Positions 10,841-35,003 of a DNA stretch of 64,000 nucleotides are shown piece by piece (within the stretch, counting starts at the first letter, position 1; each line of letters opens with the position of its first letter). The position numbers were made by a program, and so were the translations under genes. Below the pieces are notes generated by a model. That model saw only the letters and a list, made by a program, of their open reading frames with translations, ran no database searches and had not been told where the DNA came from. Where the stretch lies: contig NZ_CP034086.1 of the NCBI RefSeq assembly GCF_003855495.1, positions 1,364,001-1,428,000 on the forward strand. The letters run 5' to 3'. This DNA is from Methylocystis rosea. Lineage in GTDB: Bacteria; Pseudomonadota; Alphaproteobacteria; Rhizobiales; Beijerinckiaceae.

Positions 10841-11527
10841 ATGAATAGTCTCGTCTCGGACATCGGCGCCGGAGTTTTCAGAACCGAGCTGACGCTCTTT
10901 TTCTCGACGTTCACGACGCTGCTGGCGGTCATCAATCCTTTTGAGGTGCTCCCGGTCTTCCTTCTGCTCCTGCGCGAGAAAAGCAACCAGGAGCGCGGTC
11001 GCGTGGCGTTCATGGCCTGTCTCTATGCGCTGCTGCTGATCCTCTTCTTCCTGTTCTTTGGCGCGGTGATCTTAAAAATCTTCGGCGTCTCGCTCAGCAT
11101 GGTGCGCATCGCCGGCGGGATCGTGCTGATGAAGATCGGCTTTGAGCTTTTTTTACCCTCGTCGGACGGCGACGGAACGCCGGCGTTCGCCCGATCGACG
11201 GGCAATATCGCCTTCATGCCGCTTGCGATGCCGCTCATGATCGGCCCGGGCCCGATCGCCACCGTGCTCGGGATGATGGCCACCGTTGAGCACTCGTCCC
11301 ACGAGGCGCTGGCGTTCGGCGTCATCCTCGGCGCAATCTTTCTCGCCGTGGGCGTCACCTACGCCTGCCTCGCCTTCGCGACGCGGTTGACCACAACGCT
11401 GGGGCCGCTGGGGATTGACGCCGCGACCAGGATCGTCGGCTTCTTCGTCTCGGCGATGGGCGTATCGTTGATCTTCAACGGCGTCATGGACGCGCTTCGG
11501 TCGGCAGGCTTTGGCGGCTTGCATTAG
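10841..11527 (+). CDS. MarC family integral membrane protein
   Basis: A 228-residue protein with six predicted membrane helices. Typical family segments are TTLLAVINPFEVLPVFLLL (about residues 23-41), RIAGGIVLMKIGFELF, and AFMPLAMPLMIGPGPIATVL. Despite the historic name the family is not shown to cause multidrug resistance, and its function is unknown. A GAGAAGG ribosome site supports the ATG at 10841. It is monocistronic, convergent with the lipase-like gene. Confidence 0.9.
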   Translation: MNSLVSDIGAGVFRTELTLFFSTFTTLLAVINPFEVLPVFLLLLREKSNQERGRVAFMACLYALLLILFFLFFGAVILKIFGVSLSMVRIAGGIVLMKIGFELFLPSSDGDGTPAFARSTGNIAFMPLAMPLMIGPGPIATVLGMMATVEHSSHEALAFGVILGAIFLAVGVTYACLAFATRLTTTLGPLGIDAATRIVGFFVSAMGVSLIFNGVMDALRSAGFGGLH

Positions 11528-11545: not shown

Positions 11546-12736
11546 CTAAAGGCTGCGCAAGGTTTCGCCGAGCCTCAGATAGATCTCCCGATGCGCGTCG
11601 CGCAGTCCGGGCACCCATGGTTTGAGCTGCGCGCCGACGACCGCGTCGAAATGGTCGAACCGCTGGCCGATAGCCTTGTCGAGATATTCGTAATACCAGC
11701 GCCCCGGCTTAAGTCTTTGGCGTTTAAAGACGCCTTCGCCTCCCACCGGCTCTTCCCGCGCCGTAAAGGGATATCTTTGCGAGATGACGCTCACCGCGCC
11801 ATCATTGGGCCGCCACTGCGGCAGCGAAAGGTCGCCGCCGCCCCAACCGACGATCGGCGCCTTGGCGAAGTTGGCCTCGCGCGCCTGGTAGAGCGCCGGC
11901 TGCCAGAGAATAGGATGGATCGTCGGGTCGGGCCGCCAGGTTTTGCTAAAAAAGCCGGAAGCCCGAACATGCGTGGCGTTGGTTACGAGCGACAGATAAT
12001 AGGTCCCCGGATGGGATCTGAACCGCGCGTTGGCGTTGCGGCAGCCCTGCAGCGTCATGTCGAAGGCGAGATTGTCCTCGCCCGCGACGAAGGCGCCGGC
12101 GTCCAGACGCGCCATCGCCGCTTTCGCATCGGCTTCGCCGTTGGTCCATTGGTCAAGATGGAGATCGAAGGGCTTGCGCATGGCGCTCGGCACGCCGGCG
12201 GCCATTCCGAGAAAATTGAATGACTCCGCAATGAACCGGCTCGGCCTGCGCTTGAGCCGTCCGTCTTCACGATCGCAGCCGAAGCCGTAGGGCAGCAATG
12301 AGCCGTTGATGGCGCCGGCGACGCTGACCACACCTTCGACCCAGCCAGCGTTTGTCCCTTGCCCCCAGAAATCGCTGGCGAGCAACGCCTGCAACTGCAT
12401 GGCGGTCTGGGCGCCTGCGCCATGGCCGATAAGGATCACTGGGTTTTCCGCCGACCATTCGGGCGCAAAAGGCTCTGTATATTCCCGCGAATAGCGGGCG
12501 TGGCGCGCCTCGCTGCTGTGCTGCGCGCCGTAATCGACCCTTCCGCCGCCGATTTGCGCGAAAAGCTCGCAGGCGCGGTCGTGGAACGAGCTGACTGGTC
12601 CCACCTTCGCTTCATGGACCGCGAAAGGTTCGCCGATCTGATCGAGCGCATCGCCCCAATAGGGAAGTCCGAATTCCTGAGGACCCCAGCCGAAGAAATC
12701 ATGCACGAAAATAATATGAGTGGATTTAAGCGCCAT
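11546..12736 (-). CDS. family I.5 lipase-like protein with Ser-to-Gly at the nucleophile (probable pseudoenzyme)
   Basis: A 396-residue homologue of the thermoalkalophilic Geobacillus (family I.5) lipases. Shared landmarks: VHDFFGWG near residue 11, VGPVSSFHDRACELFAQIGG with DYGAQH, FDLHLDQW, GTYYLSLVTNATH, the catalytic-Asp segment PNDGAVS and the catalytic-His segment RFDHFDAVVG. The structural zinc ligands appear kept (Asp53, His73, His79, same spacing as Asp61, His81, His87 of L1 lipase). The nucleophile motif, however, is GHGAGAQ: Gly106 (codon GGC) stands where the Ser of H-S-x-G should be. No signal peptide is visible. It is the third gene of an operon with a tyrosinase, 38 bases after it. 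A binding, carrier or structural role is inferred. Confidence 0.85.
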   Translation of the reverse strand: MALKSTHIIFVHDFFGWGPQEFGLPYWGDALDQIGEPFAVHEAKVGPVSSFHDRACELFAQIGGGRVDYGAQHSSEARHARYSREYTEPFAPEWSAENPVILIGHGAGAQTAMQLQALLASDFWGQGTNAGWVEGVVSVAGAINGSLLPYGFGCDREDGRLKRRPSRFIAESFNFLGMAAGVPSAMRKPFDLHLDQWTNGEADAKAAMARLDAGAFVAGEDNLAFDMTLQGCRNANARFRSHPGTYYLSLVTNATHVRASGFFSKTWRPDPTIHPILWQPALYQAREANFAKAPIVGWGGGDLSLPQWRPNDGAVSVISQRYPFTAREEPVGGEGVFKRQRLKPGRWYYEYLDKAIGQRFDHFDAVVGAQLKPWVPGLRDAHREIYLRLGETLRSL

Positions 12737-12774
12737 CGCTGGTCCGAAATTCGATAGAAATCAGTGTTCGGCGC

Positions 12775-13740
12775 TCAAATGAGCGCGTCGTATTCGTAGA
12801 TCGCGCTCACGTCGAGCGTCTCCCGCGGCGTCGCACTGCGGCCGAGCGGCGAGCCGATCGGATCGTCTATGCGATGACCTTTGAGGTCCGCGCCAGCCGT
12901 CATGTCGGGAACGTAGACGCGCCCATTTCGGGACATCCAACTCTCCCAGAGGCGATCAATGTTGCAATGATTGAGAAAGAAAACCGGATCATTGGGCGAG
13001 GAGCCAAGCAACATCTCTCCGCCAATCCAGACGTGGACGAGATTGTGCATGGAGGTCGCGGAAACGCCGTCGTCGTTCATCCACCCTTCGATGCGATTAC
13101 GGAAGGTGTTCGCGTCGGCGTCCCAGTCGGGCGAATCATAGGGCGACAGCGCCAGCGCATTCGTCACATGCGCCGTTCTCGGCAGCGCATCCGTGCTGAC
13201 GCCGAAGGCGCGTCGGAGGCCGCGGTTCACGGAACGCAACTCTCCGGAAATATTCGTGGAGATGCGCACTCTGAACGCGGATGGATCGTTTGCGTGAAAC
13301 GCAAAAGGGCCGCTAGCGACCGGATTTCCCTCGCCGCCCATGCAGTTCGCCCCCCAGATGGCGGCCGAACTCTGCTCCTGCGGCGGCAGGTCGCCGTCTT
13401 CGGCCCAATCCCAGTAGGGCAGACCAAAATTCGCGTCGTTCAAAACCCGCTGGAGGTTTTGCTCGAAGACCATCAGCATCACACGATGCCATGGCGCGAA
13501 AATTGGCCCGCGGTGCGCCGCGTTCCGCTGCGCGGGATTTCCCGGCGGCGTCTCGATCATCATGGCGGTGACGTGCCAGATGACGAAAAGATCGTAGGTG
13601 CTCACTGAGCGCGCCGCGCCGGGAATGCCGAATTCATCGGTCGTTCGGCCGGACGCCTCTTTTTTCAATAGTTTGACGCCCTCAATATATTGATCGCGAA
13701 CCCCTGCATTCGTTGAGATATTGCTTCGGACGACGGCCAT
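12775..13740 (-). CDS. tyrosinase (type-3 copper polyphenol oxidase)
   Basis: A 321-residue binuclear copper enzyme. All six ligands are visible: CuA His56 (FVIWHV), His76 (AAHRGP) and His85 (FAPWHR); CuB His232 and His236 (MHNLVHVW) and His258 (FFLNHCNID). Asn233, next to His232, and Glu218 (RIEGW) occupy positions linked in other tyrosinases to deprotonation of monophenols, so both monophenolase and diphenolase activity are plausible. No signal or Tat peptide is seen, suggesting a cytoplasmic location. The start at 13740 has AGGAGAGAG upstream; the longer frame to 13971 overlaps the preceding gene. It sits 35 bases after the MelC1-like chaperone gene. Confidence 0.93.
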   Translation of the reverse strand: MAVVRSNISTNAGVRDQYIEGVKLLKKEASGRTTDEFGIPGAARSVSTYDLFVIWHVTAMMIETPPGNPAQRNAAHRGPIFAPWHRVMLMVFEQNLQRVLNDANFGLPYWDWAEDGDLPPQEQSSAAIWGANCMGGEGNPVASGPFAFHANDPSAFRVRISTNISGELRSVNRGLRRAFGVSTDALPRTAHVTNALALSPYDSPDWDADANTFRNRIEGWMNDDGVSATSMHNLVHVWIGGEMLLGSSPNDPVFFLNHCNIDRLWESWMSRNGRVYVPDMTAGADLKGHRIDDPIGSPLGRSATPRETLDVSAIYEYDALI

Positions 13741-13749
13741 CGTCTCTCT

Positions 13750-13785
13750 CCTGAAAATCAATGTTCGCCTGAAAATCAATGCTCG
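13750..13785. repeat. 18-bp tandem duplication between chaperone and tyrosinase genes
   Basis: Two adjacent 18-base copies (13750-13767 and 13768-13785) beginning CCTGAAAATCAATG differ at one base. On the minus strand each copy carries an in-frame TGA; the first reached (13776-13778) ends the chaperone gene, the second (13758-13760) would be a back-up stop. The downstream copy also supplies part of the purine-rich leader before the tyrosinase ribosome site. Confidence 0.8.
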
Positions 13786-14204
13786 TGTTTTGAACCTTTC
13801 TTCGCTGCGGGCTTGCTTTTGCGAGCAGGAGCGGGCCGGCGCTTGTGGCTTGCTGGGGGGCGGCTCTTGCTCGGGGCCGGCTTTCGCTCGAACTCCTCGG
13901 GAAAGCCGTCGATCAGCGCCCGCACCATGTCGACCGCCGACGCGGTCTGGTAGTTCGGCAATGAATGACAATGAACCTGGCCGGAGGCGTCGACGCCGAG
14001 CGGCGCGCGAACCTTCTTTCCATCCACCAAGATCTTGTACGTCGTGACGATTTCGATCTCGTGGCCGCGATAGTGGTCATTGCGGACGGACTGCGCGCCG
14101 CCCGCGCCATGACCGGCGTGCGCTGGCGCTTTGTCACGCGCGCGCGTGAGATAGTCGCTAAGTTTGCGAGGGGCGGCCCCCTGCGCGAGCTTCTTGGTCT
14201 CCAT
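13776..14204 (-). CDS. MelC1-like apotyrosinase chaperone (caddie protein)
   Basis: A 142-residue protein with a small folded core (about residues 42-105) and a basic Pro/Lys/Arg tail ending GSKHEH. The core pattern YRGHEIEI, TTYKILVDGKKV, then LPNYQTASAVDMVRALIDGF parallels the Streptomyces tyrosinase cofactor MelC1, in which YKGRRI, a VDG strand and HYEPVATPRAAARAAV occur in the same order. Tyr85 falls at the position of the caddie tyrosine that enters the tyrosinase active site. HCH (78-80) and several other histidines could bind copper. Unlike MelC1 no export signal is seen. Start 14204 has GGAG upstream. Immediately upstream of tyrosinase, as in melC. The assignment is by pattern, not by alignment. 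Confidence 0.7.
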   Translation of the reverse strand: METKKLAQGAAPRKLSDYLTRARDKAPAHAGHGAGGAQSVRNDHYRGHEIEIVTTYKILVDGKKVRAPLGVDASGQVHCHSLPNYQTASAVDMVRALIDGFPEEFERKPAPSKSRPPASHKRRPAPARKSKPAAKKGSKHEH

Positions 14205-14497
14205 AAGCGCTCCGCACAATTCCTTTTATGCAATCTGCTGCAGCCGTGGCGCGAAGGCGCTCGCTAAGTGCTCGAAAAATCTAAAGACTTCAGCCGAACG
14301 TTCGCCTCATCAAAACGGATGGGATCGAAAATTTTCCTCTAGCATTATGACGCGGCCAATGGACAGTGATGTCAAGTGAATCCCAAGGCGTTAGAATTGC
14401 GAAATTATTTGCGCCACTCGGACGCTCCGGCCCTCATCGCGATCGGAAGAACTTGCGTGGCTTGTCGGCGAGGCTTAGCGACTCGATCGAGGCATCA
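14205..14497. promoter_or_regulatory. divergent intergenic region, tyrosinase operon and recJ
   Basis: These 293 bases separate two divergent transcripts and must hold promoters for both. The stretch about 14270-14410 is less GC-rich than its surroundings. I cannot pick out convincing -35/-10 pairs. A GAGG element six bases before 14498 is the recJ ribosome site. An open frame from 14366 in frame with recJ is judged to be upstream sequence. Confidence 0.4.
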
Positions 14498-16294
14498 ATG
14501 TCCGATTCGATGGTTCCCGCCTTTCTGGGGGTCGAGCGCTCCGTGCTCGGTCGACGTTGGCGCGGGCGTCTGGACGCCAGAGGCGAGGCGCAGGCGCTTG
14601 CGCTGACCCAGGCGCATGGCATCGACGATTTTCTTGCGCGGGTGATCGCCGGGCGCGGCGTCACGGTCGCCGACGCCGCTGGCTATCTCGATCCCAAGCT
14701 GCGCGACCTCCTGCCGGACCCCTCGTCGCTGCGCGACATGGACGCGGCGACCACCCGGCTTGCGGACGCGATTGAAAAGTCCGAGCAGATCGCCGTTTTT
14801 GGCGACTATGACGTCGACGGCGCCTGTTCCTCGGCGCTGCTTATCGACTTTTGGCGCGCGTCCGGCGCGCCGGAGCCCTTGCTCCATATTCCCGACCGGA
14901 TCATCGAGGGCTATGGGCCGAATGTCGAGGCGATCCGCGATCTCGCGGCGCGAGGCGCAACTCTGCTGGCGACCGTCGACTGCGGGACTTCAAGTCACGA
15001 CGCGTTCGCCGTCGCGCGGGCGCTTGGCCTCGATGTGATCGTCCTCGACCATCATCAGGCGCCGGAAATCCTGCCGGATGCGCTCGTCGTCAATCCCAAC
15101 AGGCTCGATGATCTATCGGGGCAGGGAGCGCTCTGCGCCGCGGGGGTGGTTTTTCTTGTCCTCATCGGATTGTCGAGGACGCTGCGTGCGCGCGGCTGGT
15201 GGAGCGACGATCGACCAGAGCCGGATCTTCTCGCCGCGCTCGATCTCGTCGCGCTGGCGACGGTCGCCGACGTCTCGCCGCTGGCGCGGCTCAACAGGGC
15301 GCTCGTAGCCAAGGGTCTGATGGTGATGGGGGCGCGATCGCGTCCGGGGCTCGCCGCGCTGATGGACGCCGCCCGTTTAGATGGGCCACCGCGCGCCTAT
15401 CATCTTGGTTTCGCGCTCGGGCCGCGGATTAACGCCGGCGGTCGGATCGGCGACGCCGGCCTCGGCGCAAGGCTTCTCACACTCGCTGACGGCATGGAAG
15501 CGCGTCGCATCGCTCTCGAGCTGGACCGGCTGAATGGCGAACGACAGGTCGTCGAAAGGATGATTTTGGAGCAGGCGGTCGCCGAGGCGGAAGCGCAGTT
15601 GGCAGGGTCCAATCGACTGTCGTGTCTCGTCGTGCATGGACAGGATTGGCATCCCGGCGTTGTCGGACTAATCGCATCACGCTTAAAGGAACGCTTCAAC
15701 ACTCCAGCATTTGTTATTGCTTTCAATGGAGAATATGGAACAGGTTCAGGTAGGAGTTTAAGTGGCGTCGACCTTGGAGCCGGCGTGCGGCGCGCGGTCG
15801 AAATGGGCCTGGCGGTCAAGGGGGGCGGGCATGCGATGGCCGCCGGCGTGACTTTGGCCCGGGGCAAGATCGACGAGTTTCGCGCCTTTCTCGATGAGGC
15901 GCTGGCGGCGTCCGTCGAAGCCGCGCATCTCGACGATGCGCTGGTTGTCGACGCGGCAGTCGCCGGACGAGGAGTCTGTCTTGAACTGCTGCGACGGGTC
16001 GAGCGAGCCGGTCCATTCGGGCAGGGCAACCCCGAGCCCTTGTTTGCTCTCCCCGAGCAGCAGGTCACATTCGCCCAGACGGTTGGGGCCGATCATGTGC
16101 GCGCCCGCTTGCGTTCGCGCGACGGCGCTACGGTCGACGCCATCGCCTTTCGCGCCGTGCAGTCGCCGCTGGGCGAGGCGCTGTTGAGGGGTGACGGGGC
16201 GCAGCTTCACGTCGCGGCGAAACTGTCACGCAATGTCTTTCGCGGCATCGAGCGCGTCGAGACGCGAATCGTCGACCTCGCGCGCGTTCAATGA
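14498..16294 (+). CDS. recJ: single-stranded-DNA-specific 5'-3' exonuclease RecJ
   Basis: A 598-residue DHH-family exonuclease used in recombination and mismatch or base-excision repair. Catalytic motifs are complete: FGDYDVDGAC (Asp103, Asp105, Asp107), TVDCG (Asp161), DHH (184-186), then the DHHA1 domain with GGGHAMAAG and the C-terminal OB domain with GPFGQGNPEP. The ATG at 14498 (MSDSMVP) follows GAGG; in-frame upstream codons back to 14366 look non-coding. About 100 bases within the gene (15661-15765) are only some 45% GC while both sides are near 65-70%, although the protein there is conserved-looking. Confidence 0.95.
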   Translation: MSDSMVPAFLGVERSVLGRRWRGRLDARGEAQALALTQAHGIDDFLARVIAGRGVTVADAAGYLDPKLRDLLPDPSSLRDMDAATTRLADAIEKSEQIAVFGDYDVDGACSSALLIDFWRASGAPEPLLHIPDRIIEGYGPNVEAIRDLAARGATLLATVDCGTSSHDAFAVARALGLDVIVLDHHQAPEILPDALVVNPNRLDDLSGQGALCAAGVVFLVLIGLSRTLRARGWWSDDRPEPDLLAALDLVALATVADVSPLARLNRALVAKGLMVMGARSRPGLAALMDAARLDGPPRAYHLGFALGPRINAGGRIGDAGLGARLLTLADGMEARRIALELDRLNGERQVVERMILEQAVAEAEAQLAGSNRLSCLVVHGQDWHPGVVGLIASRLKERFNTPAFVIAFNGEYGTGSGRSLSGVDLGAGVRRAVEMGLAVKGGGHAMAAGVTLARGKIDEFRAFLDEALAASVEAAHLDDALVVDAAVAGRGVCLELLRRVERAGPFGQGNPEPLFALPEQQVTFAQTVGADHVRARLRSRDGATVDAIAFRAVQSPLGEALLRGDGAQLHVAAKLSRNVFRGIERVETRIVDLARVQ

Positions 16295-22216: not shown

Positions 22217-22548
22217 GGGCGGAAACGCCTTTCGTGATGAGGATGTCCGACGAATATACTCCGATGAATATACATGGCGTCCGTCGAGGGCGTTTAATGC
22301 GGCATGCATGAACAAACTGTCACGTCCAAATTACGGTTTTGGCGGTAAAATGCCTCTTTAACGCGCCGGTTGCGCTTGAATTGCAGCGGCGGAGAGACGA
22401 AGATTGCGCTTGGCCCTAATCCCCGCCGCTTCGCTTTATATGCGGAGCCGAATGGCGCGGGGGCTTTGAATCGCGTGCGGCGAAACACGGCAGCGCCGCT
22501 ACGATGCGCCCGATCCTCTTCATAGACAGGCTGCCTGAGCACGCTGAA
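22217..22548. other. divergent promoter region with a short tandem repeat
   Basis: About 330 bases between minus-strand DUF6111-cca and the plus-strand MoxR operon. Two adjacent 14-base units, CCGACGAATATACT (22247-22260) and CCGATGAATATACA (22261-22274), match at 12 positions. On the minus strand each gives TATATT, a -10-like hexamer 30-60 bases before the DUF6111 start. The rest shows no recognisable gene; an in-frame MoxR extension to 22504 is possible. Confidence 0.45.
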
Positions 22549-23553
<1,005 letters not shown>

Positions 23554-23590
23554 CGAGCCGTCGCTCGGCTCTTTCCTCTGACGGAGAAAG

Positions 23591-24532
23591 ATGACGATGT
23601 TTGCTGACGTCGCCACGCGCGCCTACGATCCTGCACAGCGCAAGCCCGCAGATGGCGCTACGGCGGCCGATCTCGCGAGCCGGATGCCGAGGCTGGTGGC
23701 GCGGGCGCATGAGATCGCGGCGAGCCTCGCCTATGGCGTTCATGGCCGCAAGCGCGCGGGCGTCGGCGAGACGTTTTGGCAATACCGGCCATTTGCATCG
23801 GGCGAATCGGCGCATCGCATCGACTGGCGCCGCTCGGCGCGCGGCGATCAGCTCTATGTGCGCGAGCGTGAATGGGAGGCCGCGCACGACTATTTCCTCT
23901 GGATGGATTGTTCTCCCTCCATGGCCTTCGGCTCGTCTCTCGCTTCCGACGACAAGCTGTCCCGCGGCGTGACCCTGGGGCTGGCGCTCGCCGACGTGCT
24001 CGTTCGCGGCGGCGAGCGGGCGGCGGCGCTGGGCCTGACCGCGCCGATCTCGGCGCGCGACGTGATCGACCGGCTGGCGCGCGCTCTGGCTGACAACGCA
24101 ACGGAGGCGGCGCGCGACGAGCTTCCGCCGCAGGCGCCGCTCCGCCCCCGCGCCCGCGTCATTCTGATCTCAGACTTCCTCATCGATCCGGATGCGCTGG
24201 CCGCGCGCCTGCGGCGCTTCGCCGACGCCGGCGCCTCCGGCGCGGTGCTGATGGTGACCGATCCCAGCGAAGAAACCTTGCCGTTCTCCGGCGAAACCAC
24301 TTTTCTAGACACCGACGGCGGCCCGGCCTTCTACGCAGGCGACGCGCGCAGCTTGCGCGCGGCCTATGCGCGCCGCTTCGAGGCGCATCGCGACGCCGTG
24401 CGCCGCGCGGCGCAACGCGTCGGCTTCATCTTCCTGCAGCATCGCACCGACAGGCCAGCCTCCGAAGCGGCGCTGGCGCTCGCTATGGGATTGCTCGGAG
24501 CGGATGGAGTCAGCTTCGAGGAGCGGCGCTGA
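23591..24532 (+). CDS. DUF58 domain protein
   Basis: A 313-residue protein. The conserved DUF58 core GVHGRKRAGVGETFWQYRPF...IDWRRSARGDQLYVREREWE lies at about residues 48-98, followed by a VWA-like domain with DCSPSMAFGS, a degenerate metal-ion site, and later VILISDFLID. Such proteins are the usual clients of MoxR ATPases, but their biochemistry is not established. GGAG lies just before the ATG. The next gene's ATG overlaps this stop (TGATG). Confidence 0.9.
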   Translation: MTMFADVATRAYDPAQRKPADGATAADLASRMPRLVARAHEIAASLAYGVHGRKRAGVGETFWQYRPFASGESAHRIDWRRSARGDQLYVREREWEAAHDYFLWMDCSPSMAFGSSLASDDKLSRGVTLGLALADVLVRGGERAAALGLTAPISARDVIDRLARALADNATEAARDELPPQAPLRPRARVILISDFLIDPDALAARLRRFADAGASGAVLMVTDPSEETLPFSGETTFLDTDGGPAFYAGDARSLRAAYARRFEAHRDAVRRAAQRVGFIFLQHRTDRPASEAALALAMGLLGADGVSFEERR

Positions 24533-27291
24533 TGTTTTCCTTCACCGCGCCGCTCGCGCTGTTTGGTCTCATCAGCCTGCCGATGATCTATTGGCTGTTG
24601 CGGGTCACGCCGCCGCGTCCGCGCGAGATCGTCTTTCCGCCGACGAAAATTCTGCGCGAACTCAAGCCCGACGAAGAGACGCCGGCAAAAACCCCTTGGT
24701 GGCTGATGGCGCTGCGGCTAGCGCTCGCCGCCGCGTTGATTTTCGCGATGGCGGGACCGGTCTGGGCGCCGAGCGGCGTCGTCGCGTCCACCGCGCCGAC
24801 GCTTGTCATCCTCGACGACGGCTGGACGGCGGCGCCGACATGGGAGCGACGCCTTGCGGGGGCGGCGTCGATCATCGAGTCGGTCGCGCGCGCCGGCGGA
24901 CCGGTCGCGGTCGCGCTTGCGTCAGAATCCGCGGCGCCGGTTCCAGGCGACGGGCCGCGCGCGATGGAAAAATTGCGCTCGGCGCGGCCCAAGCCATTTC
25001 TGCCGGACCGCAAGGCGATCGGCGAACAGGTCACGGCCTTCGCCCACGGCCGTAAGGCGCGCATCGTATGGATCAGCGACGGCGTCGCGCAGGGCGACGC
25101 CGCAGGCTTCGTGCGCGCGCTGAAAGAGTCGGGCGCGAGCGCCGTCGAGATTTACGTCGAAGACCATGCGCCGCGCGCGCTCGCCGCGCCGACAAATGAT
25201 GCGGCCACGCTGAGCGTCGATGTGCTGCGCATCGGCGACGACGCGTCGGCGGTCGTCGACGCGCTTGACGCGAAAGGTCGAACGGTCGGCCGAGCCGAAG
25301 TGGATTTTGGCGGCGCGCGGCGCGTTCGAGGGAAAATCGAACTGCCGGTCGAACTTCGCAACGAGGTGAGTCATCTGCGCATCGAAGGAGAAAACTCCGC
25401 CGGCGCCGTCGCGCTTCTTGACGCGCGCTCGAAAGTGAAGCGCGTGGCGCTGATCGGAGGCGGCGCGGCCGATGAGGCGCAGCCGCTGCTCTCGCCGCTC
25501 TACTACCTGGAAAAAGCGCTTGCGCCCTTCGCCCAAATCCGCACGGCGCGTCCCGGCGTCGTGGATCCGGTGCAGGCGTTGCTCGCCGAACAGCCCAATA
25601 TCATGGGGCTCGCAGATGTCGGGCTCGCGCCCGGCGAGACATTCGACGCGGTGTCGCGCTTCGTTGAAGAAGGCGGGACGCTCATTCGTTTCGCCGGGCC
25701 GCGTCTCGCCAACGCCGAGGATGGTCTGCTGCCCGTGCGCCTGCGCCGGAACGGCCGCGTGCTCGGCGGGGCCATGTCCTGGGAGGAGCCAAAAGCGCTC
25801 GCCGAGTTTGACGCCACCAGCCCCTTCTTCGGCTTGCCGGCTTCGAAGGACGTCACGGTGCAGCGGCAGGTGCTCGCCGAGCCCGATCCGGGACTTGCCG
25901 ACAAGACCTGGGCCCGCCTGTCCGACGGCACGCCGCTCGTGACCGCGGAACGACGCGGGAAGGGGCTGATCGTGCTGTTTCACGTCAACGCCGACGCCAA
26001 TTGGTCGAATCTGCCAATCTCGGGACTTTTCGTTGAGATGCTGAAACGGATCAGCGCCATGGCTGGAGAGTCGACGCCTGCGAGCAGCGAACGATCTGGC
26101 GCCGATCCGGCGGCTTTCGCGCCGATGCGCCTACTCGATGGATTTGGCGCGCTCGGCGCGCCGGGCCTCAGCGCGCAAAGCATTCCGCCTGGCTTCGACG
26201 GGCCTGCAAGCGCCGAACATCCGCCTGGGCTATACGGCTCGGGGGAGGCTTTCGTCGCGGTGCAGACCTTGCGCCCGACTGACGAGATCAGCGCTTTCGA
26301 TTTCGCCGGCGCCGGACTGAGCGCGGACGTGTTGCGGGCCGGCGGCCAACTCGATTTGCGCGGGCCGCTGCTCGTCTTCGCTCTCGCCGCCTTCATCGCC
26401 GACGCGCTGATCGTTCTGGCGCTTGCCGGAAAGCTGCGGCTGCGGCCGCTGAGCGCCGCTACCGCGGCGCTTCTGGCGCTCTCCTGCGTAGCGGCGACGA
26501 TTGATGAAACACGTGCGGAGACGGCGCCGAAATCCACCGCCACCCAGCGCGACAAGGACGCCGCGCTGACGGCGCGGCTCGCCTATGTGATCTCGGGCGA
26601 CGCCCGCGTTGATGAAATATCGCGGCTGGGCCTCGAGGCGCTCACCCAGGCGCTGAATGCGCGCACCTCTTTCGCACCGGGCGATCCGGTGGGCGTCGAT
26701 CCGGCGAAGGACGAACTCGCCTTTTATCCCTTGCTCTACTGGCCGATCGTCGCGAGCGCGCCGCAGCCGCCCGCGAAGACGGTGGCGAAAGTCACCGCCT
26801 ATATGAAGCAGGGCGGCACAATCATCTTCGACACGCGAGACGCGCTCTCTCAACGTGTCGGCGGCGCGCCGAGTCCGGAGGCGCAATGGCTGCGCGACCT
26901 GACGAAAGGCTTGGACATTCCGCCTTTGGAAGTGACGCCGCGCGATCACGTCATCACCAAGACCTTCTATTTGCTTGATGGATTCGTCGGCCGTTACGCC
27001 AATGGCGAGACCTGGGTCGAGGCGCTGCCGCCGGAGCCGAAAGATCAGGCCGCGCGTCCGGTGCGCGCGACGGACAGCGTCTCCGCGATCGTCATCACCT
27101 CGAACGACCTCGCCAGCGCCTGGGCGCATGACAAACGCGGCCAGCCGCTGTTTCCCTTGACGCCGGGCGGCGCGCGCCAGCGCGAATTCGCGCTCCGCGG
27201 CGGCATCAATTTGGTGATGTATACGCTGACCGGGAACTATAAGTCGGATCAGGTGCATGTGCGCGACTTGCTGGAAAGGCTGGGCCAATGA
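24532..27291 (+). CDS. BatA-like / DUF4159 membrane protein
   Basis: A 919-residue inner-membrane protein. The N-terminus (TAPLALFGLISLPMIYWLLR, then PPTKILREL and a second helix ending GPVWAP) is the BatA/aerotolerance-type domain. A central region with a VWA/GATase-like fold follows, with a further pair of hydrophobic segments near residues 615-665. The C-terminal domain (about 670-919; TARLAYVISGDARVDEISRLGLEAL, GGTIIFDTRD) is DUF4159. It is coupled to DUF58 by TGATG and to the next gene by ATGA. The operon is thought to act in envelope stress or assembly; no substrate is visible. Confidence 0.88.
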   Translation: MFSFTAPLALFGLISLPMIYWLLRVTPPRPREIVFPPTKILRELKPDEETPAKTPWWLMALRLALAAALIFAMAGPVWAPSGVVASTAPTLVILDDGWTAAPTWERRLAGAASIIESVARAGGPVAVALASESAAPVPGDGPRAMEKLRSARPKPFLPDRKAIGEQVTAFAHGRKARIVWISDGVAQGDAAGFVRALKESGASAVEIYVEDHAPRALAAPTNDAATLSVDVLRIGDDASAVVDALDAKGRTVGRAEVDFGGARRVRGKIELPVELRNEVSHLRIEGENSAGAVALLDARSKVKRVALIGGGAADEAQPLLSPLYYLEKALAPFAQIRTARPGVVDPVQALLAEQPNIMGLADVGLAPGETFDAVSRFVEEGGTLIRFAGPRLANAEDGLLPVRLRRNGRVLGGAMSWEEPKALAEFDATSPFFGLPASKDVTVQRQVLAEPDPGLADKTWARLSDGTPLVTAERRGKGLIVLFHVNADANWSNLPISGLFVEMLKRISAMAGESTPASSERSGADPAAFAPMRLLDGFGALGAPGLSAQSIPPGFDGPASAEHPPGLYGSGEAFVAVQTLRPTDEISAFDFAGAGLSADVLRAGGQLDLRGPLLVFALAAFIADALIVLALAGKLRLRPLSAATAALLALSCVAATIDETRAETAPKSTATQRDKDAALTARLAYVISGDARVDEISRLGLEALTQALNARTSFAPGDPVGVDPAKDELAFYPLLYWPIVASAPQPPAKTVAKVTAYMKQGGTIIFDTRDALSQRVGGAPSPEAQWLRDLTKGLDIPPLEVTPRDHVITKTFYLLDGFVGRYANGETWVEALPPEPKDQAARPVRATDSVSAIVITSNDLASAWAHDKRGQPLFPLTPGGARQREFALRGGINLVMYTLTGNYKSDQVHVRDLLERLGQ

Positions 27292-29366
27292 GCGACCTCA
27301 CGCTCGCCTTTTCGCCGCTCGTTCCCTGGTCGGCGCTGATCATTCTCGGCCTGCTTGGCGCCGGCGCGCTGGCGCTGATGGCGGCCAAACGCCAGCGGGG
27401 CGCGCCGCTCCGGGCGTTTGCTTTCGCCTTGCTGATTGCGGCGCTCGCCGACCCGTCGCTCGTGCGCGAAAAACGCGATCCGCAAAAGAGCGTCGTCGCG
27501 GTGGTTGTCGACAAGAGCGACAGCCAGAATTTCGGCGCGAGAAACGCGCAAACGGAAGAGGCGCGCAAGGCGCTCGACTCTGCGCTCGCCAAATTCGGCG
27601 ACGTCGAGACGCGCACGATCACGGTGTCGAACGACGCTTCCGGCAATGACGGCACCAAGCTCTTCGGCGCGCTCGCCGAAGTTTTGAAGGACGTTCCGTC
27701 GGAGCGCGTCGGCGGCGCAATTCTTCTGACCGACGGCGTCGTTCACGATATTCCCGCCAAGGCCGAAGCGCTCGGCTTCAAAGCGCCCGTTCAAGCGCTC
27801 GTGACGGGGCATAAGGGCGAGCGCGACCGCCGCATCGAACTCGTCGAGGCGCCGCGTTTTGGCATCGTCGGCAAGGATCAGATCATCCGCGCCCGCGTCG
27901 TCGATCTTGGCGGCGACGGCGCCCGCATACCGATTTCAGTGCGCCGCGACGGCGAAGCACTGCCGACCTTCAGCCCCGTGCCTGGCGACATCGTCAGCAT
28001 TCCGGTGCGCATCGAACATGGCGGACAAAATGTCGTCGAACTCGAAATTCCGTCAGCGCCCGGCGAGCTGACGCCGCTCGACAATAAGGCCGTGCTGACG
28101 ATCGAAGGCGTGCGCGACCGGCTCAAAGTGTTGCTTGTGTCGGGCGAGCCGCATCCGGGCGAGCGGAGCTGGCGCAATCTCTTGCGCGCCGACGCCAATG
28201 TCGAACTGGTGCATTTCACCATTTTGCGGCCGCCGGAGAAGCTCGACGTCACGCCGGCGAGCGAATTGTCGCTGATCGCCTTTCCGACCGCCGATCTCTT
28301 CGGGAAGAAAATCAACGAATTCGATCTCATCATTTTCGATCGCTATTCGAGCCAAACGACGCTGCCCTCGATCTATTTCGAGAACATCGCCAATTACGTC
28401 GAGAATGGCGGCGCCTTTCTCGCGGCTGTCGGCCCGGATTACGCGACCTTGCGGGGCCTCTATTACTCGCCGCTCGAAAACATTCTGCCGGCGCGCCCTG
28501 ACGGCGCGCTCATTGAACAGGCGTTTCGCGCCCGCGTCAGCAAGGACGGCGAGAAGCATCCGGTGACGCGCGGCCTCGCCGGCGCCAAATCCGAGCCGCC
28601 GAATTGGGGCGAATGGTTCAGGCAGGTCGACGCCAATGTGGTGAAGGGCGACTCGATCATGTCGGGCGTGCACGACAAGCCGCTGCTGGTGCTCTCGCAC
28701 GAAGGCAAGGGCAGGGTGGCGCTGCTGCTCTCTGACCAGATTTGGCTCTGGGCGCGCGGCTATGAAGGCGGCGGCCCGCATGTCGATCTGACGCGCCGCC
28801 TGGCGCATTGGCTGATGAAGGAGCCGGATCTCGAAGAAGAGGCGCTGCGCGCTTCCGCGCATGGCCGCGAGATCAGCGTCGAGCGCCAGACAATGAAGGA
28901 GCGACCGGCGCCGGTGATGGCGACGGCGCCGTCCGGCGCGCGCGACGAGATCGCCGTCGCGCAAGGCGAGCCGGGACTGTGGCGCGCGCGTTTCGACGCC
29001 AAGGAAATGGGTCTGTGGCGCTTCCAGAGCGAAGGCCTCACCGCGCTTGTGAACGTCGGCCCGCCCAATCCGCGCGAGTTTCGCGAAGTGGCCTCGACGA
29101 CGGAGAAACTGCAACCGCTCGTGGAAGCGACCGGCGGCACGGCGCGGCGTTTATCGAACGGCGGCGCCGACACGGTCTCCATGCCGCGCGTCGTCGAATT
29201 GCGCGACGCCAACCGCTATGGCGGCTCGGACTGGATCGGGATCAGACAGACCGGCGCCTCGACGCTCGTCGGCGTCGAAATCGCGCCGCTTGGTCTGGGG
29301 CTTTGGGCGATGCTGGCGCTGGTCGGCGCCGTCGTCGCGGCCTGGGGCTGGGAGGGGCGGCGGTAG
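27288..29366 (+). CDS. large membrane protein with VWA/glutamine-amidotransferase-like region
   Basis: A 692-residue protein, the last of the MoxR operon. Two N-terminal helices (about residues 10-30 and 43-58) and one C-terminal helix (about 665-685) frame a large extracytoplasmic domain. The segment VVAVVVDKSDSQNFG looks like a VWA strand with a degenerate metal site (DKSDS rather than DxSxS). The middle part (KVLLVSGEPHPGERSWRNLL and the EFDLIIFDRY segment) resembles the class-I-amidotransferase-like fold of this family. ATGA overlap with the DUF4159 gene. Function unknown; co-function with MoxR is inferred from context. Confidence 0.85.
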   Translation: MSDLTLAFSPLVPWSALIILGLLGAGALALMAAKRQRGAPLRAFAFALLIAALADPSLVREKRDPQKSVVAVVVDKSDSQNFGARNAQTEEARKALDSALAKFGDVETRTITVSNDASGNDGTKLFGALAEVLKDVPSERVGGAILLTDGVVHDIPAKAEALGFKAPVQALVTGHKGERDRRIELVEAPRFGIVGKDQIIRARVVDLGGDGARIPISVRRDGEALPTFSPVPGDIVSIPVRIEHGGQNVVELEIPSAPGELTPLDNKAVLTIEGVRDRLKVLLVSGEPHPGERSWRNLLRADANVELVHFTILRPPEKLDVTPASELSLIAFPTADLFGKKINEFDLIIFDRYSSQTTLPSIYFENIANYVENGGAFLAAVGPDYATLRGLYYSPLENILPARPDGALIEQAFRARVSKDGEKHPVTRGLAGAKSEPPNWGEWFRQVDANVVKGDSIMSGVHDKPLLVLSHEGKGRVALLLSDQIWLWARGYEGGGPHVDLTRRLAHWLMKEPDLEEEALRASAHGREISVERQTMKERPAPVMATAPSGARDEIAVAQGEPGLWRARFDAKEMGLWRFQSEGLTALVNVGPPNPREFREVASTTEKLQPLVEATGGTARRLSNGGADTVSMPRVVELRDANRYGGSDWIGIRQTGASTLVGVEIAPLGLGLWAMLALVGAVVAAWGWEGRR

Positions 29367-30175: not shown

Positions 30176-31285
30176 TTGCCCACCTACCGCTCAATAGGCC
30201 TCATGTCCGGCACGTCCATGGACGGCGTCGATGTCGCGTTGATCGAAACCGATGGCGACGCCGCCGTCGTCTTCGGACCGACGGGGCACTACCCCTATAG
30301 CGACGCCGACCGCGCGCTGCTGCGCAACGCGCTCGCCGAAGCCGCGACGCTTGAAGATCGCGACGCGCGGCCCGGCGTTCTCGCCTTCGCGGAGCGCATG
30401 GTGACCGACCGCCACGCCGAGGCGGTCGAGGCGTTGTTGCGGGATCATGAGATCGACCCGGCAAGCGTCAATATCGTCGGTTTTCATGGCCAGACGGTGC
30501 TGCACCGTCCCAAGCAAAGGCTCACGATCCAGATCGGCGACGGGCCGGCGCTCGCCGCGCGTCTCGGACTCGACGTGGCTTATGATTTCCGCGCCGCCGA
30601 CATCGCCGCCGGCGGCGAAGGCGCGCCGATTGTGCCCGTGTTCCATCGCGCACTTGTCCTCGCCGGCGGCATGAAGGGTGAGGTCGCGCTGCTCAATATC
30701 GGCGGCGTCGCCAACGTCACTTATGTCGCGGACGGCGAGGAGCCGATCGCCTGCGACACGGGGCCCGGCAATGCGCTCATCGACGATCTGATGCTTCAGC
30801 GCACCGGCGCGCCGATCGACCGGCACGGCCATATGGCGGCGCGCGGCCGCGTCAATGAAGCGACGCTGCTGAAGATGCTGGCGCATCCCTTCTTCGATCA
30901 GCCGCCGCCGAAATCGCTCGACCGCAACGCCTTCGCGCTTGATGCGGTCGCCAAGCTCTCGACCGAGGACGCCGCCGCGACGCTGACCGCCTTTACGGCG
31001 TCTTCCGTGCTGCGGCTTTTTCCGCATCTGCCGACTCAGCCGCAACTGCTGATCGTCTGCGGCGGCGGCGCGCGCAATCCGATCCTCGTGCGCGAACTCG
31101 TCATGCGCCTGCCGTGCAAGGTGACGACGGCCGACGCGGTCGGATGGTCAGCGGATTCGATGGAGGCGCAGGCCTTCGCCTATCTCGCCGCGCGCGTGCT
31201 GGAAGGACTGCCGCTCACCTTCCCGACGACGACCGGCGCGCCTCAAGCCATGTGCGGCGGCGTGCTGGCGCGAGCGGCCGCGTAA
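30176..31285 (+). CDS. anmK: anhydro-N-acetylmuramic acid kinase
   Basis: A 369-residue sugar kinase that hydrolyses and phosphorylates 1,6-anhydro-MurNAc to MurNAc-6-phosphate in peptidoglycan recycling. Visible motifs: IGLMSGTSMDGVDVALI (phosphate loop, residues 7-23), VGFHGQTVLHRP, YDFRAADIAAGGEGAPIVPV, LNIGGVANVTY, CDTGPGNALIDD and VCGGGARNP. The start is TTG at 30176, with GGAG eight bases upstream. It stands alone between an AT-rich islet and a palindromic sequence. Confidence 0.95.
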   Translation: MPTYRSIGLMSGTSMDGVDVALIETDGDAAVVFGPTGHYPYSDADRALLRNALAEAATLEDRDARPGVLAFAERMVTDRHAEAVEALLRDHEIDPASVNIVGFHGQTVLHRPKQRLTIQIGDGPALAARLGLDVAYDFRAADIAAGGEGAPIVPVFHRALVLAGGMKGEVALLNIGGVANVTYVADGEEPIACDTGPGNALIDDLMLQRTGAPIDRHGHMAARGRVNEATLLKMLAHPFFDQPPPKSLDRNAFALDAVAKLSTEDAAATLTAFTASSVLRLFPHLPTQPQLLIVCGGGARNPILVRELVMRLPCKVTTADAVGWSADSMEAQAFAYLAARVLEGLPLTFPTTTGAPQAMCGGVLARAAA

Positions 31286-32788: not shown

Positions 32789-32920
32789 TCCCCTCCCCAC
32801 GCTTTAGCGGCGGGGAGGGGCTAGGGGTGGGGGGCGACTCCGTCCCGTGCGGACGTCCTTTTGCCCCCCACCCGGTTCGCTTAGCGAACCACCCTCCCCG
32901 CCGCTACGTGGGGGGAGGGT
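32789..32920. repeat. large inverted palindromic repeat element (REP-like) in the sigma-VWA operon
   Basis: The left end (CCCCTCCCCACG, then TAGCGGCGGGGAGGGG) is repeated in inverted orientation at the right end (CCTCCCCGCCGCTACG, then GGGGGAGGG). Between them GGGTGGGGGGC near 32825 is mirrored by GCCCCCCACCC near 32863, and GGTTCGC-TTA-GCGAACC forms a perfect small hairpin at about 32874-32890. Such CCCTCCCC/GGGGAGGG palindromic elements are dispersed in alphaproteobacterial genomes. It lies 45 bases after the sigma-factor stop and 40 before the VWA start. Confidence 0.75.
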
Positions 32921-32960
32921 TGGTCACGGGCTGGCTGTTGGCGCAAGGGGAGACGGCGTA

Positions 32961-35003
32961 GTGGCCGAACACGACCATCTCTCAAAGCTCAAAGACGCGC
33001 CGATCCCGCCGCCCGATGGCGAGGCGAAGCGCCTAGCGCTCGCAGCGGCGATGGCCGCTTTTGAGAAAGGCGCGGCCGAGACCCAAGGATCGGCCGCGCC
33101 GCAACGTCTCAGTCACGCATCCTCTCCAACGGAAGGGAAAAGAAAGATGCGTCAGACGTTCTATTTCAACCGCGCGCTCGCGGCCTCGATCGCCGCGCTG
33201 ATGATCGGCGCGCCCGCCGCCTTCATGCTCTCGCGCAACTATGCGCCGGGCGGCGGGAGCATATCCAATCCTGTTGGCCCCATCTCGCCGGCGGCCGAGG
33301 TCGCCGTAGCGCCGCGCATGGAGGCTCCGGCGGCAATCCAGCCCGCTCCCGCGCCCTCGGCCTCTGTCGCAGGAGAAGAGAGAGCGAAGACGGCGGGCGC
33401 GCTCGGAGGTCGACGCGACGGCCTTGTTGCGCCGCCGCCTCCGCGCCTCGCCGGTCGAGACGGCGCCGCGCAGCGGCTGTCGCGATCTATTCAGCCCGCG
33501 AAACCGGTCGCCGTGATGAACGCAGAAGGCGTCCGGCCGCCGATGTCGGTTGATACGAATGTCGCGCCTGAGAGCGAATTTCGCGACAGGTTCGAGTCAA
33601 AGGAGACGAACCCCGTCAAGTTAGCGGCGACGGACCCCGTCTCGACCTTCTCGATCGACGTCGATGCCGCCTCCTACGCCTTCGCGCGCCGCGCGCTCAA
33701 CGCCGGGCGCCTGCCGCCGAAAGATTCGGTGCGGGTCGAGGAGTTCGTCAATTACTTTCCCTACGACTATCCGAAGCCCGAAAGCGCGCAGACGCCATTC
33801 AAGCCGACGATCACGGTGACGCCAAGCCCGTGGAACGCCGGCAATCGCCTCGTGCATGTGGCGATACAGGGCTATGCGCTGCAAAGCGCCGAGCGCCCGC
33901 GCGCCAATCTCGTGTTTCTGATCGACGTGTCGGGCTCCATGTCGCCGCAGGATCGGCTGCCGCTCGTCAAGAACGCGCTGCGGATGCTGGTCGACGAGTT
34001 GAAGCCTGAAGACACGGTCGCGGTCGTCACCTACGCTTCGGGCTCGGGCGTCGCGCTCGAGCCGACGAAGGTCGCCGACAAGGCCAAAATTCTCGGGGCG
34101 ATCGACGCCCTCGGCGCGGGCGGCTCGACCGCCGGCGCGCAAGGCATTCAGGACGCCTACCGCCTGGCGGAGAGCAACTTTGACAGGTCGGCGGTCAATC
34201 GCGTGATCCTCGCCACCGACGGCGATTTCAATGTCGGCGTCACGGATCAGCGCGAATTGAAGGGGCTGATCGAAAGAAAGCGCGAGAAGGGCGTTTTCCT
34301 GTCGATACTCGGCGTCGGCCAAGGCAATTACAACGACGCGCTGATGCAAGCGTTGGCGCAGAACGGCAATGGCGCGGCGGTCTATGTCGATAACCTCAAC
34401 GAAGCGCGCAAAGCGCTGGTTGAGGAAGCGTCGTCGACGCTCTTTCCTATCGCCAAGGACGTTAAAATCCAGGTGGAGTGGAATCCGGCTCGCGTCTCAG
34501 AATATCGCCTGATCGGTTATGAAACCCGCGCGCTGCGCCGCGAGGATTTCAACAACGACAAGGTGGACGCAGGCGATGTCGGCTCCGGTCACCGCGTCAC
34601 CGCGATTTACGAGATCACACAGGTCGGCGCCGAAAAGAAGCTGGTCGACGATCTGCGTTACGGCAAGAAGACGCCGGCGCCGGTCTCGGCGCAGGGTGCG
34701 GAAAGCGAACTCGGCTTCCTCAAGCTGCGCTACAAGCTGCCGAAGGAGGAGGCCTCACGGCTTATCACGCAGCCGATCGCCGAATCGCCAAGCATTGAAA
34801 GTATCGCGCGCGCGTCGCAGGACGTGCGATTCTCCGTCGCCGTCGCGGCCTTCGCGCAGCTGCTGAAAGGCGCGCCCTATCTTGGCGATTACAGCTACGA
34901 CGATGTGATCGCGCTGGCGCAGAGCGCCAAGGGCGACGATCCGTTCGGCTACCGCGCGGAATTCGTCAATCTCGCGCGGCTGGCGAAGTCGGCGCGGCCG
35001 TAA
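32961..35003 (+). CDS. membrane-anchored von Willebrand factor A protein (YfbK type)
   Basis: About 680 residues. A cytoplasmic N-terminus of some 70 residues (KLKDAPIPPPDGEAKRLALA, AAMAAFEKG) precedes one membrane helix (FNRALAASIAALMIGAPAAFML), so the rest is periplasmic. A Pro/Ala-rich linker is followed by the YfbK N-domain (DPVSTFSIDVDAASYAFARR), a VWA domain with the MIDAS motif DVSGSMS and ATDGDFNVG, and a DUF3520-like C-terminus. Start GTG 32961 has GGGGAG eight bases upstream. Following a sigma factor, the N-terminal segment may act as an anti-sigma domain, as in other VWA-ECF pairs (inference). Confidence 0.88.
   Translation: MAEHDHLSKLKDAPIPPPDGEAKRLALAAAMAAFEKGAAETQGSAAPQRLSHASSPTEGKRKMRQTFYFNRALAASIAALMIGAPAAFMLSRNYAPGGGSISNPVGPISPAAEVAVAPRMEAPAAIQPAPAPSASVAGEERAKTAGALGGRRDGLVAPPPPRLAGRDGAAQRLSRSIQPAKPVAVMNAEGVRPPMSVDTNVAPESEFRDRFESKETNPVKLAATDPVSTFSIDVDAASYAFARRALNAGRLPPKDSVRVEEFVNYFPYDYPKPESAQTPFKPTITVTPSPWNAGNRLVHVAIQGYALQSAERPRANLVFLIDVSGSMSPQDRLPLVKNALRMLVDELKPEDTVAVVTYASGSGVALEPTKVADKAKILGAIDALGAGGSTAGAQGIQDAYRLAESNFDRSAVNRVILATDGDFNVGVTDQRELKGLIERKREKGVFLSILGVGQGNYNDALMQALAQNGNGAAVYVDNLNEARKALVEEASSTLFPIAKDVKIQVEWNPARVSEYRLIGYETRALRREDFNNDKVDAGDVGSGHRVTAIYEITQVGAEKKLVDDLRYGKKTPAPVSAQGAESELGFLKLRYKLPKEEASRLITQPIAESPSIESIARASQDVRFSVAVAAFAQLLKGAPYLGDYSYDDVIALAQSAKGDDPFGYRAEFVNLARLAKSARP

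Follow-up and report, generated by a model that had tools for sequence, protein, structure and literature searches.

The gene set described here lies in a window of 64,000 nucleotides from Methylocystis rosea (contig NZ_CP034086.1, 1364001-1428000), the window being the whole stretch of DNA that was analysed. It comprises the genes of a protein that resembles the caddies (MelC1) of Streptomyces tyrosinases, of a tyrosinase, and of a lipase-like protein in which the catalytic serine is missing. The genes are located on the minus strand in that order, and each starts with ATG. The caddie-like gene (13776..14204, 142 amino acids) is followed by the tyrosinase gene (12775..13740, 321 amino acids) and by the gene of a family I.5 lipase homologue (11546..12736, 396 amino acids). 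Gap 1, between the caddie-like and tyrosinase genes (13741..13775, minus strand), has 35 bases and contains the ribosome site AGGAGAGAGACG. Gap 2, between the tyrosinase and lipase-like genes (12737..12774, minus strand), has 38 bases here and 41 to 42 in the eight relatives compared. A purine-rich ribosome site precedes each start (GGAG; AGGAGAG; a weaker CGGA). Open reading frames (ORFs) and sequence hence confirm the three minus-strand genes, their gaps, and their separate ribosome sites as described in an earlier, sequence-only reading of the window. The gene identities and the caddie–tyrosinase pairing given there are likewise right, with the caddie likeness coming from a low-confidence model only and lying below Pfam.

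On the other strand, recJ (14498..16294, plus; RecJ_OB, DHH, and DHHA1 domains) is the divergent neighbor, and marC (10841..11527, plus; PF01914) is the convergent neighbor downstream of the lipase-like gene. recJ is a place marker common to linked loci, which contain all three genes, and to solo loci, which contain the lipase-like gene alone. The leader of the gene set (14205..14400, minus strand) lies between recJ and the caddie-like gene and was delineated by an alignment of 15 upstream regions. It contains the block CCGTTTTGATGAGGCG at about 14303-14320, which shows at most two changes in each of the 15 loci, linked and solo. From the spacing and the shared leader, the three genes probably form an operon with one leader, as had been proposed. 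A comparison of the leader with Rfam gave no match. Its motif occurs in the genome, with up to three mismatches, at eight places compared with one for the reversed control; only one place is exact, and no regulon is claimed. As a separate observation, a unit of 17 to 18 bases ending in GATTTTCAGG (window 13741-13800) is present in two copies around where the caddie-like gene ends in six of nine loci, this strain included, and in one copy in L005, L007, and L013.

The tyrosinase and the caddie-like protein

The tyrosinase passes the Pfam family PF00264 with 141 bits against a cut-off of 22.6, and solved tyrosinases of Bacillus and Streptomyces match it at E values of about 1e-48. With the NCBIfam equivalog TyrosinaseMelC2, it reaches 177.5 bits, which is under the cut-off of 450. 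All six copper histidines are present (H56, H76, and H85; H232, H236, and H258), with roles assigned by motif comparison. Asn233 follows HisB1, and Glu218 is found at the waterkeeper position, also assigned by motif; the roles of these two residues are those described in PMC10526336. The protein is predicted to be an active enzyme. M. rosea is already found among the tyrosinase host organisms in a table of PMC9454253. A second, short tyrosinase frame of 228 amino acids is present in genome G301 (L034:1417-2421, minus; L073). It comes after an ORF of 92 amino acids that shows the caddie-like features NYRGRVIEL and LIDGKEV and has no PDB or Pfam match.

The 142-residue protein is probably a distant, MelC1-like putative copper chaperone. 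The MelC1 family of Pfam (PF06236) gave no match to it at E values up to 1 and no match across its own genome at E values up to 10. In a low-confidence model with a mean predicted local distance difference test score (pLDDT) of 51, solved caddies came first among the fold matches, and Foldseek gave none at an E value of 0.001 or better. The protein is characterized by an invariant HCH motif (H78-C79-H80) and by invariant H29/H32. In a weak alignment, Tyr85 falls onto the caddie residue Tyr98, which reaches into the tyrosinase active site. Tyr85 is invariant in the nine rows of alignment A3, and its column is not kept in the caddie-like homologue of G456, a genome of another family.

None of the three proteins shows an obvious export signal, in agreement with the sequence-only reading: a Kyte-Doolittle scan revealed no strongly hydrophobic stretch, with best 19-residue means of 0.40, 0.97, and 1.26. 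At the N terminus of the caddie-like protein there is neither an RR pair nor a hydrophobic stretch, so a twin-arginine translocation (Tat) signal was not seen (no signal-peptide program was applied). The helper gene comes first, as in the MelD type.

The lipase homologue and the spread of the three families

The lipase-like protein passes PF24708 with 78 bits against 27. It is matched by 36 PDB sequences of solved family I.5 lipases over residues 8-333 of 396 (best E 2e-33). Sequence homology and the zinc site residues of this family are present, and its Ser-Asp-His triad is incomplete, with the Ser absent. The nucleophile motif reads GHGAG at 104-108, placing Gly106 in the serine position. 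This exchange, which the sequence-only reading had noticed here, is found in all 18 close sequences, linked or solo, at 88-100% identity (one of them, L065, is a cut piece of 298 residues), and the serine loss is therefore common to both forms. HG has likewise become HD at H12-D13 in 18 of 18. Asp312 and His362 are kept in all 17 close sequences that are long enough to reach them. At the predicted zinc ligands D53, H73, H79, and D195, all 15 rows of alignment A4 agree, and Asp312 and His362 never vary there either; we take these ligands to be the counterparts of D61, H81, H87, and D238 of lipase L1. The Ser is kept in G297 and G298, two more distant homologues within the genus (about 52-53%; GHSAG), and in two Treponema sequences. 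From the Ser-to-Gly exchange, we infer that the lipase-like protein has lost hydrolysis. Its AF2 (AlphaFold2) model, being poor (pLDDT 44), did not enter a fold search. Among named relatives of the gene, that of M. rosea SV97 is the nearest.

Among 39 Methylocystis genomes, which form the genus sample, the lipase-like family occurs in 20 (18 close), the tyrosinase in 14 (12 close), and the caddie-like family in 13. The tyrosinase of G327 (40%, one internal stop) was excluded from the close-tyrosinase counts. All 12 close tyrosinases have a caddie-like gene directly before and a lipase-like gene directly behind them, with one caddie-like gene cut by a contig end. Since the arrangement is kept in 12 of 12 genomes, it is not due to chance. 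G310 contains a 63% tyrosinase with a 54% caddie-like gene elsewhere in the genome and no lipase-like match, the genome being 89% complete. In G456, a caddie-like gene accompanies a 46% tyrosinase, and the lipase-like gene is absent on the approximately 450 bases of remaining contig. Relatives with a tyrosinase and without its neighbors, which the sequence-only reading had regarded as speaking against its proposal, thus exist as far as the lipase-like gene is concerned and were not found as far as the caddie-like gene is concerned.

A scan of 84,980 species with the lipase-like protein, a single-protein query that finds close relatives only, returned 17 loci, of which 15 are of the Methylocystis type and two are from Treponema. 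In 385 genomes of the class, the tyrosinase has a match in 20, many of them weak, and the caddie-like family occurs in three, one of them by chance; a hidden Markov model of the lipase-like family found only its own genome there. A caddie-like match in G390 (E 6e-4) runs antisense within an era-like gene and was discarded as a chance hit. The search of 297 genomes of the order with a single lipase-like sequence also returned the own genome only. On plasmids, the caddie-like protein has no match, the lipase-like protein has three, all on Gram-positive plasmids, and the tyrosinase has 148 records, all below 60% identity. Eight plasmid tyrosinase regions were inspected with 1500 bases on each side: six gave Streptomyces caddies, and those of Mycetohabitans and Rhizobium showed no caddie-like gene before the tyrosinase.

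Solo loci and selection on the lipase-like gene

At six close loci (L008-L012 and L014), recJ is followed by the lipase-like gene alone and then by marC; the L012 sequence begins only behind recJ, and L008 and L009 have a split marC frame. By their coordinates, these loci coincide with G321, G322, G326, G323, G325, and G327. All six solo copies are full length and open. The DNA before them matches the tyrosinase 3′ end together with gap 2, with blastn E values of 9e-7 to 9e-16 in five loci and 7e-6 in L009. When only the coding tail of the tyrosinase is used, the solo loci score 19-37, and in none of the six did any of 1000 block shuffles attain the score. The outgroup L068 (G297), a longer stretch, scores 13, a value reached by 416 of 1000 shuffles. 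L008 retains the 5′ portion of the caddie-like gene, in which TTG replaces the ATG start. In L010, L011, L012, and L014, the leader is joined to one identical tyrosinase position. Tyrosinase remains and junctions thus point to a deletion of the pair that took two or more steps or events; as the lipase tree does not decide on a solo clade (p value of the approximately unbiased test, p-AU, 0.45), this count is a minimum. A close tyrosinase was found nowhere else in the six solo genomes, two of which are only 59 and 64% complete, and G327 has the distant tyrosinase with the internal stop. With its Ser-bearing relative adjoining recJ and no tyrosinase traces, L068 suggests an earlier insertion of the pair beside recJ.

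The leader is conserved even where the pair is gone. This fits one transcript, the head of which would now feed the lipase-like gene directly. In the solo loci L011 and L014, about 110 extra bases with the character of an inverted repeat, perhaps a small mobile repeat, are located between recJ and the leader.

For the lipase-like gene, the ratio of nonsynonymous to synonymous substitution rates (dN/dS) averages 0.090 over eight linked sequences and 0.141 over six solo ones. An initial calculation that included nine linked sequences yielded medians of 0.092 (linked) and 0.139 (solo), with 0.116 for the tyrosinase. For the control genes, which used four or five of the six solo loci, the solo/linked ratios of dN/dS are 1.43 (recJ), 1.29 (cysK-like), 1.16 (marC), and 1.07 (epimerase). 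Because some of the solo divergence may predate the losses, the four solo loci with one shared deletion junction were taken as a subset, whose differences postdate the deletion if this was a single event; herein the lipase-like gene shows a dN/dS of 0.142 at a mean dS of 0.326. The low dN/dS in the solo loci, this subset included, indicates that the lipase-like gene is kept by selection without the tyrosinase. Hence, with relatives that have lost the first two genes and kept the third, the lipase-like protein seems to have a job of its own.

Interpretation and relation to known systems

We consider it fairly probable that the locus is a two-plus-one gene set, in which a caddie–tyrosinase pair is combined with a separately selected pseudo-lipase that is not an obligate part of the tyrosinase. 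The conserved order, the common serine loss, the deletion of the pair with retention of the lipase-like gene, and the purifying selection, all read from sequence, point to this. All three genes would be transcribed from one leader. We infer that the caddie-like protein would load copper into the tyrosinase, both being in the cytoplasm, and that the enzyme would most likely oxidize phenols or catechols, by analogy with MelD1-MelD2. The lipase-like fold would have lost hydrolysis and kept the zinc site and the rest of the triad. It would most likely bind a hydrophobic or ester-like ligand in its old lipid pocket, the zinc site serving as a structural element. The lipase-like protein may serve the tyrosinase, but such a service is not required to account for its retention.

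Several observations weigh against this reading. The caddie assignment lies under every sequence threshold and depends on a poor model (pLDDT 51). The caddie residues His82, Met84, and His97, assigned to copper from the names of mutants in PDB entry titles, are not conserved; the residues aligned with them, in a weak alignment, are Arg, Pro, and a gap, and no HxM motif occurs anywhere in the protein. A sigma-70 promoter scan on the strand of the gene set found no site, and co-transcription is deduced from the short distances between the genes and the leader that they share. Both neighbors are present at every close tyrosinase, which a working three-protein module would also predict. Finally, the solo/linked dN/dS ratio of the lipase-like gene is 1.57, slightly above the four controls, so that constraint may have relaxed weakly once the tyrosinase was lost.

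Such a module, in which the lipase fold would bind the hydrophobic substrate or product of the tyrosinase and the solo copies would be temporary leftovers, is unlikely in our view. The lipase-like gene directly behind all 12 close tyrosinases and its somewhat higher dN/dS in solo loci would suit it, but the control genes rise too (recJ 1.43-fold), the solo copies are without exception full length and open, and the four with the shared junction, at dS 0.33, were kept long after the loss. In addition, Gly106 is already present in the solo copies, and the related pairs of G310 and G456 manage without a lipase-like gene. The sequence-only reading had given the lipase-like protein a working role in a copper-phenol module; this idea is not supported, since six loci deleted the pair and kept the Ser-less gene under purifying selection. 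Slightly less probable still is an enzyme with altered chemistry, in which Asp13 and His362, or the zinc site, would replace the serine. The HG-to-HD exchange does accompany the serine loss in all 18 sequences, and A4 shows no variation at Asp312, at His362, or at any of the four zinc ligands, but the model is poor (pLDDT 44), and no family I.5 member is known to us to act in this manner. The insertion of the pair between recJ and an unrelated lipase-like gene, with a position that is meaningless beyond a borrowed transcript, appears improbable. It agrees with the Ser-bearing homologue of G297, which adjoins recJ without a tyrosinase trace, and with the location of the pair elsewhere in G310 and G456. 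The order kept in 12 of 12 genomes and the short gaps, measured in nine loci, speak against it, though shared descent might also account for them. The two-plus-one gene set thus remains our preferred reading. Beyond it, we propose only tentatively that the clade contains two new protein kinds jointly, namely an alphaproteobacterial caddie subfamily that would deliver copper via the invariant HCH instead of the His/Met of Streptomyces, and an I.5 zinc fold that Ser-to-Gly together with HG-to-HD would have converted from a hydrolase to a binding protein or a novel enzyme, outliving the tyrosinase.

Among known systems, the locus is best read from its sequence as a MelD-like phenol oxidase that is intracellular and has a divergent caddie. 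The Streptomyces MelD pair is intracellular and protects against phenolics (PMC2758597). As in melD (MelD1-MelD2), the helper gene is located directly before the oxidase gene and a Tat export signal is missing, with the enzyme being cytoplasmic in Streptomyces (PMC2758597). In contrast, the melD helper is a MelC1 homologue by sequence, and the melD genes mostly overlap by 17 bases (PMC2758597), whereas the helper here lies beyond the Pfam MelC1 family and carries the HCH motif. The word "lipase" does not occur in the text of that paper. Hence, the statement of the sequence-only reading that no such system had been described can hold only for the trio, since the intracellular caddie–tyrosinase pair is already known as melD (PMC2758597). 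Searches of an open-licence library listed no title or abstract that describes the trio or a Ser-less I.5 lipase.

With Streptomyces melC (MelC1 caddie and MelC2 tyrosinase; PDB 1wx2 and others), the locus shares the caddie-like fold match of the low-confidence model, the six copper histidines, and the gene order. It differs in that no Tat signal was seen, in the nonconserved caddie residues His82, Met84, and His97, and in the MelC2 equivalog score (177.5 compared with 450). Marinomonas PpoB1-PpoB2 likewise combines, in a single operon, a tyrosinase of a Gram-negative bacterium and a partner for copper transfer, but PpoB2 resembles putative transmembrane COG5486 proteins and not a caddie (PMC2855505). 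Rhizobium MelA is likewise an alphaproteobacterial intracellular tyrosinase; unlike the enzyme here, it has 609 amino acids and is without an associated helper gene (PMC2758597). Compared with lipase family I.5 (Geobacillus L1/BTL2 and Clostridium EstA/EstB; PMC12616515), the lipase-like protein agrees in the match over 8-333, in the triad Asp and His, and in the zinc site of two Asp and two His, and differs in the Ser-to-Gly exchange in 18 of 18 and in HG-to-HD.

Three features are new at this locus: the divergent putative chaperone with its HCH motif, the pseudo-lipase that is conserved among relatives, and the fossil traces left by their separation. Loss of the pair from loci that keep the lipase-like gene amounts to a natural experiment in which the two functions are separated, and it cautions against taking conserved operons as complexes. 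A Ser-less member of a lipase family under strong selection in methanotrophs makes a non-hydrolytic role of the fold directly testable. The caddie-like protein, if confirmed, would extend copper chaperones of the caddie fold beyond Streptomyces, with other likely ligands and in copper-dependent methane oxidizers.

Elsewhere in the window, an ordinary cluster of MoxR ATPase, DUF58, and BatA/DUF4159 genes is found at 22504-29366. Behind it lie the genes of an AnmK kinase (30176-31285) and of a YfbK-type VWA protein (32847-35003).

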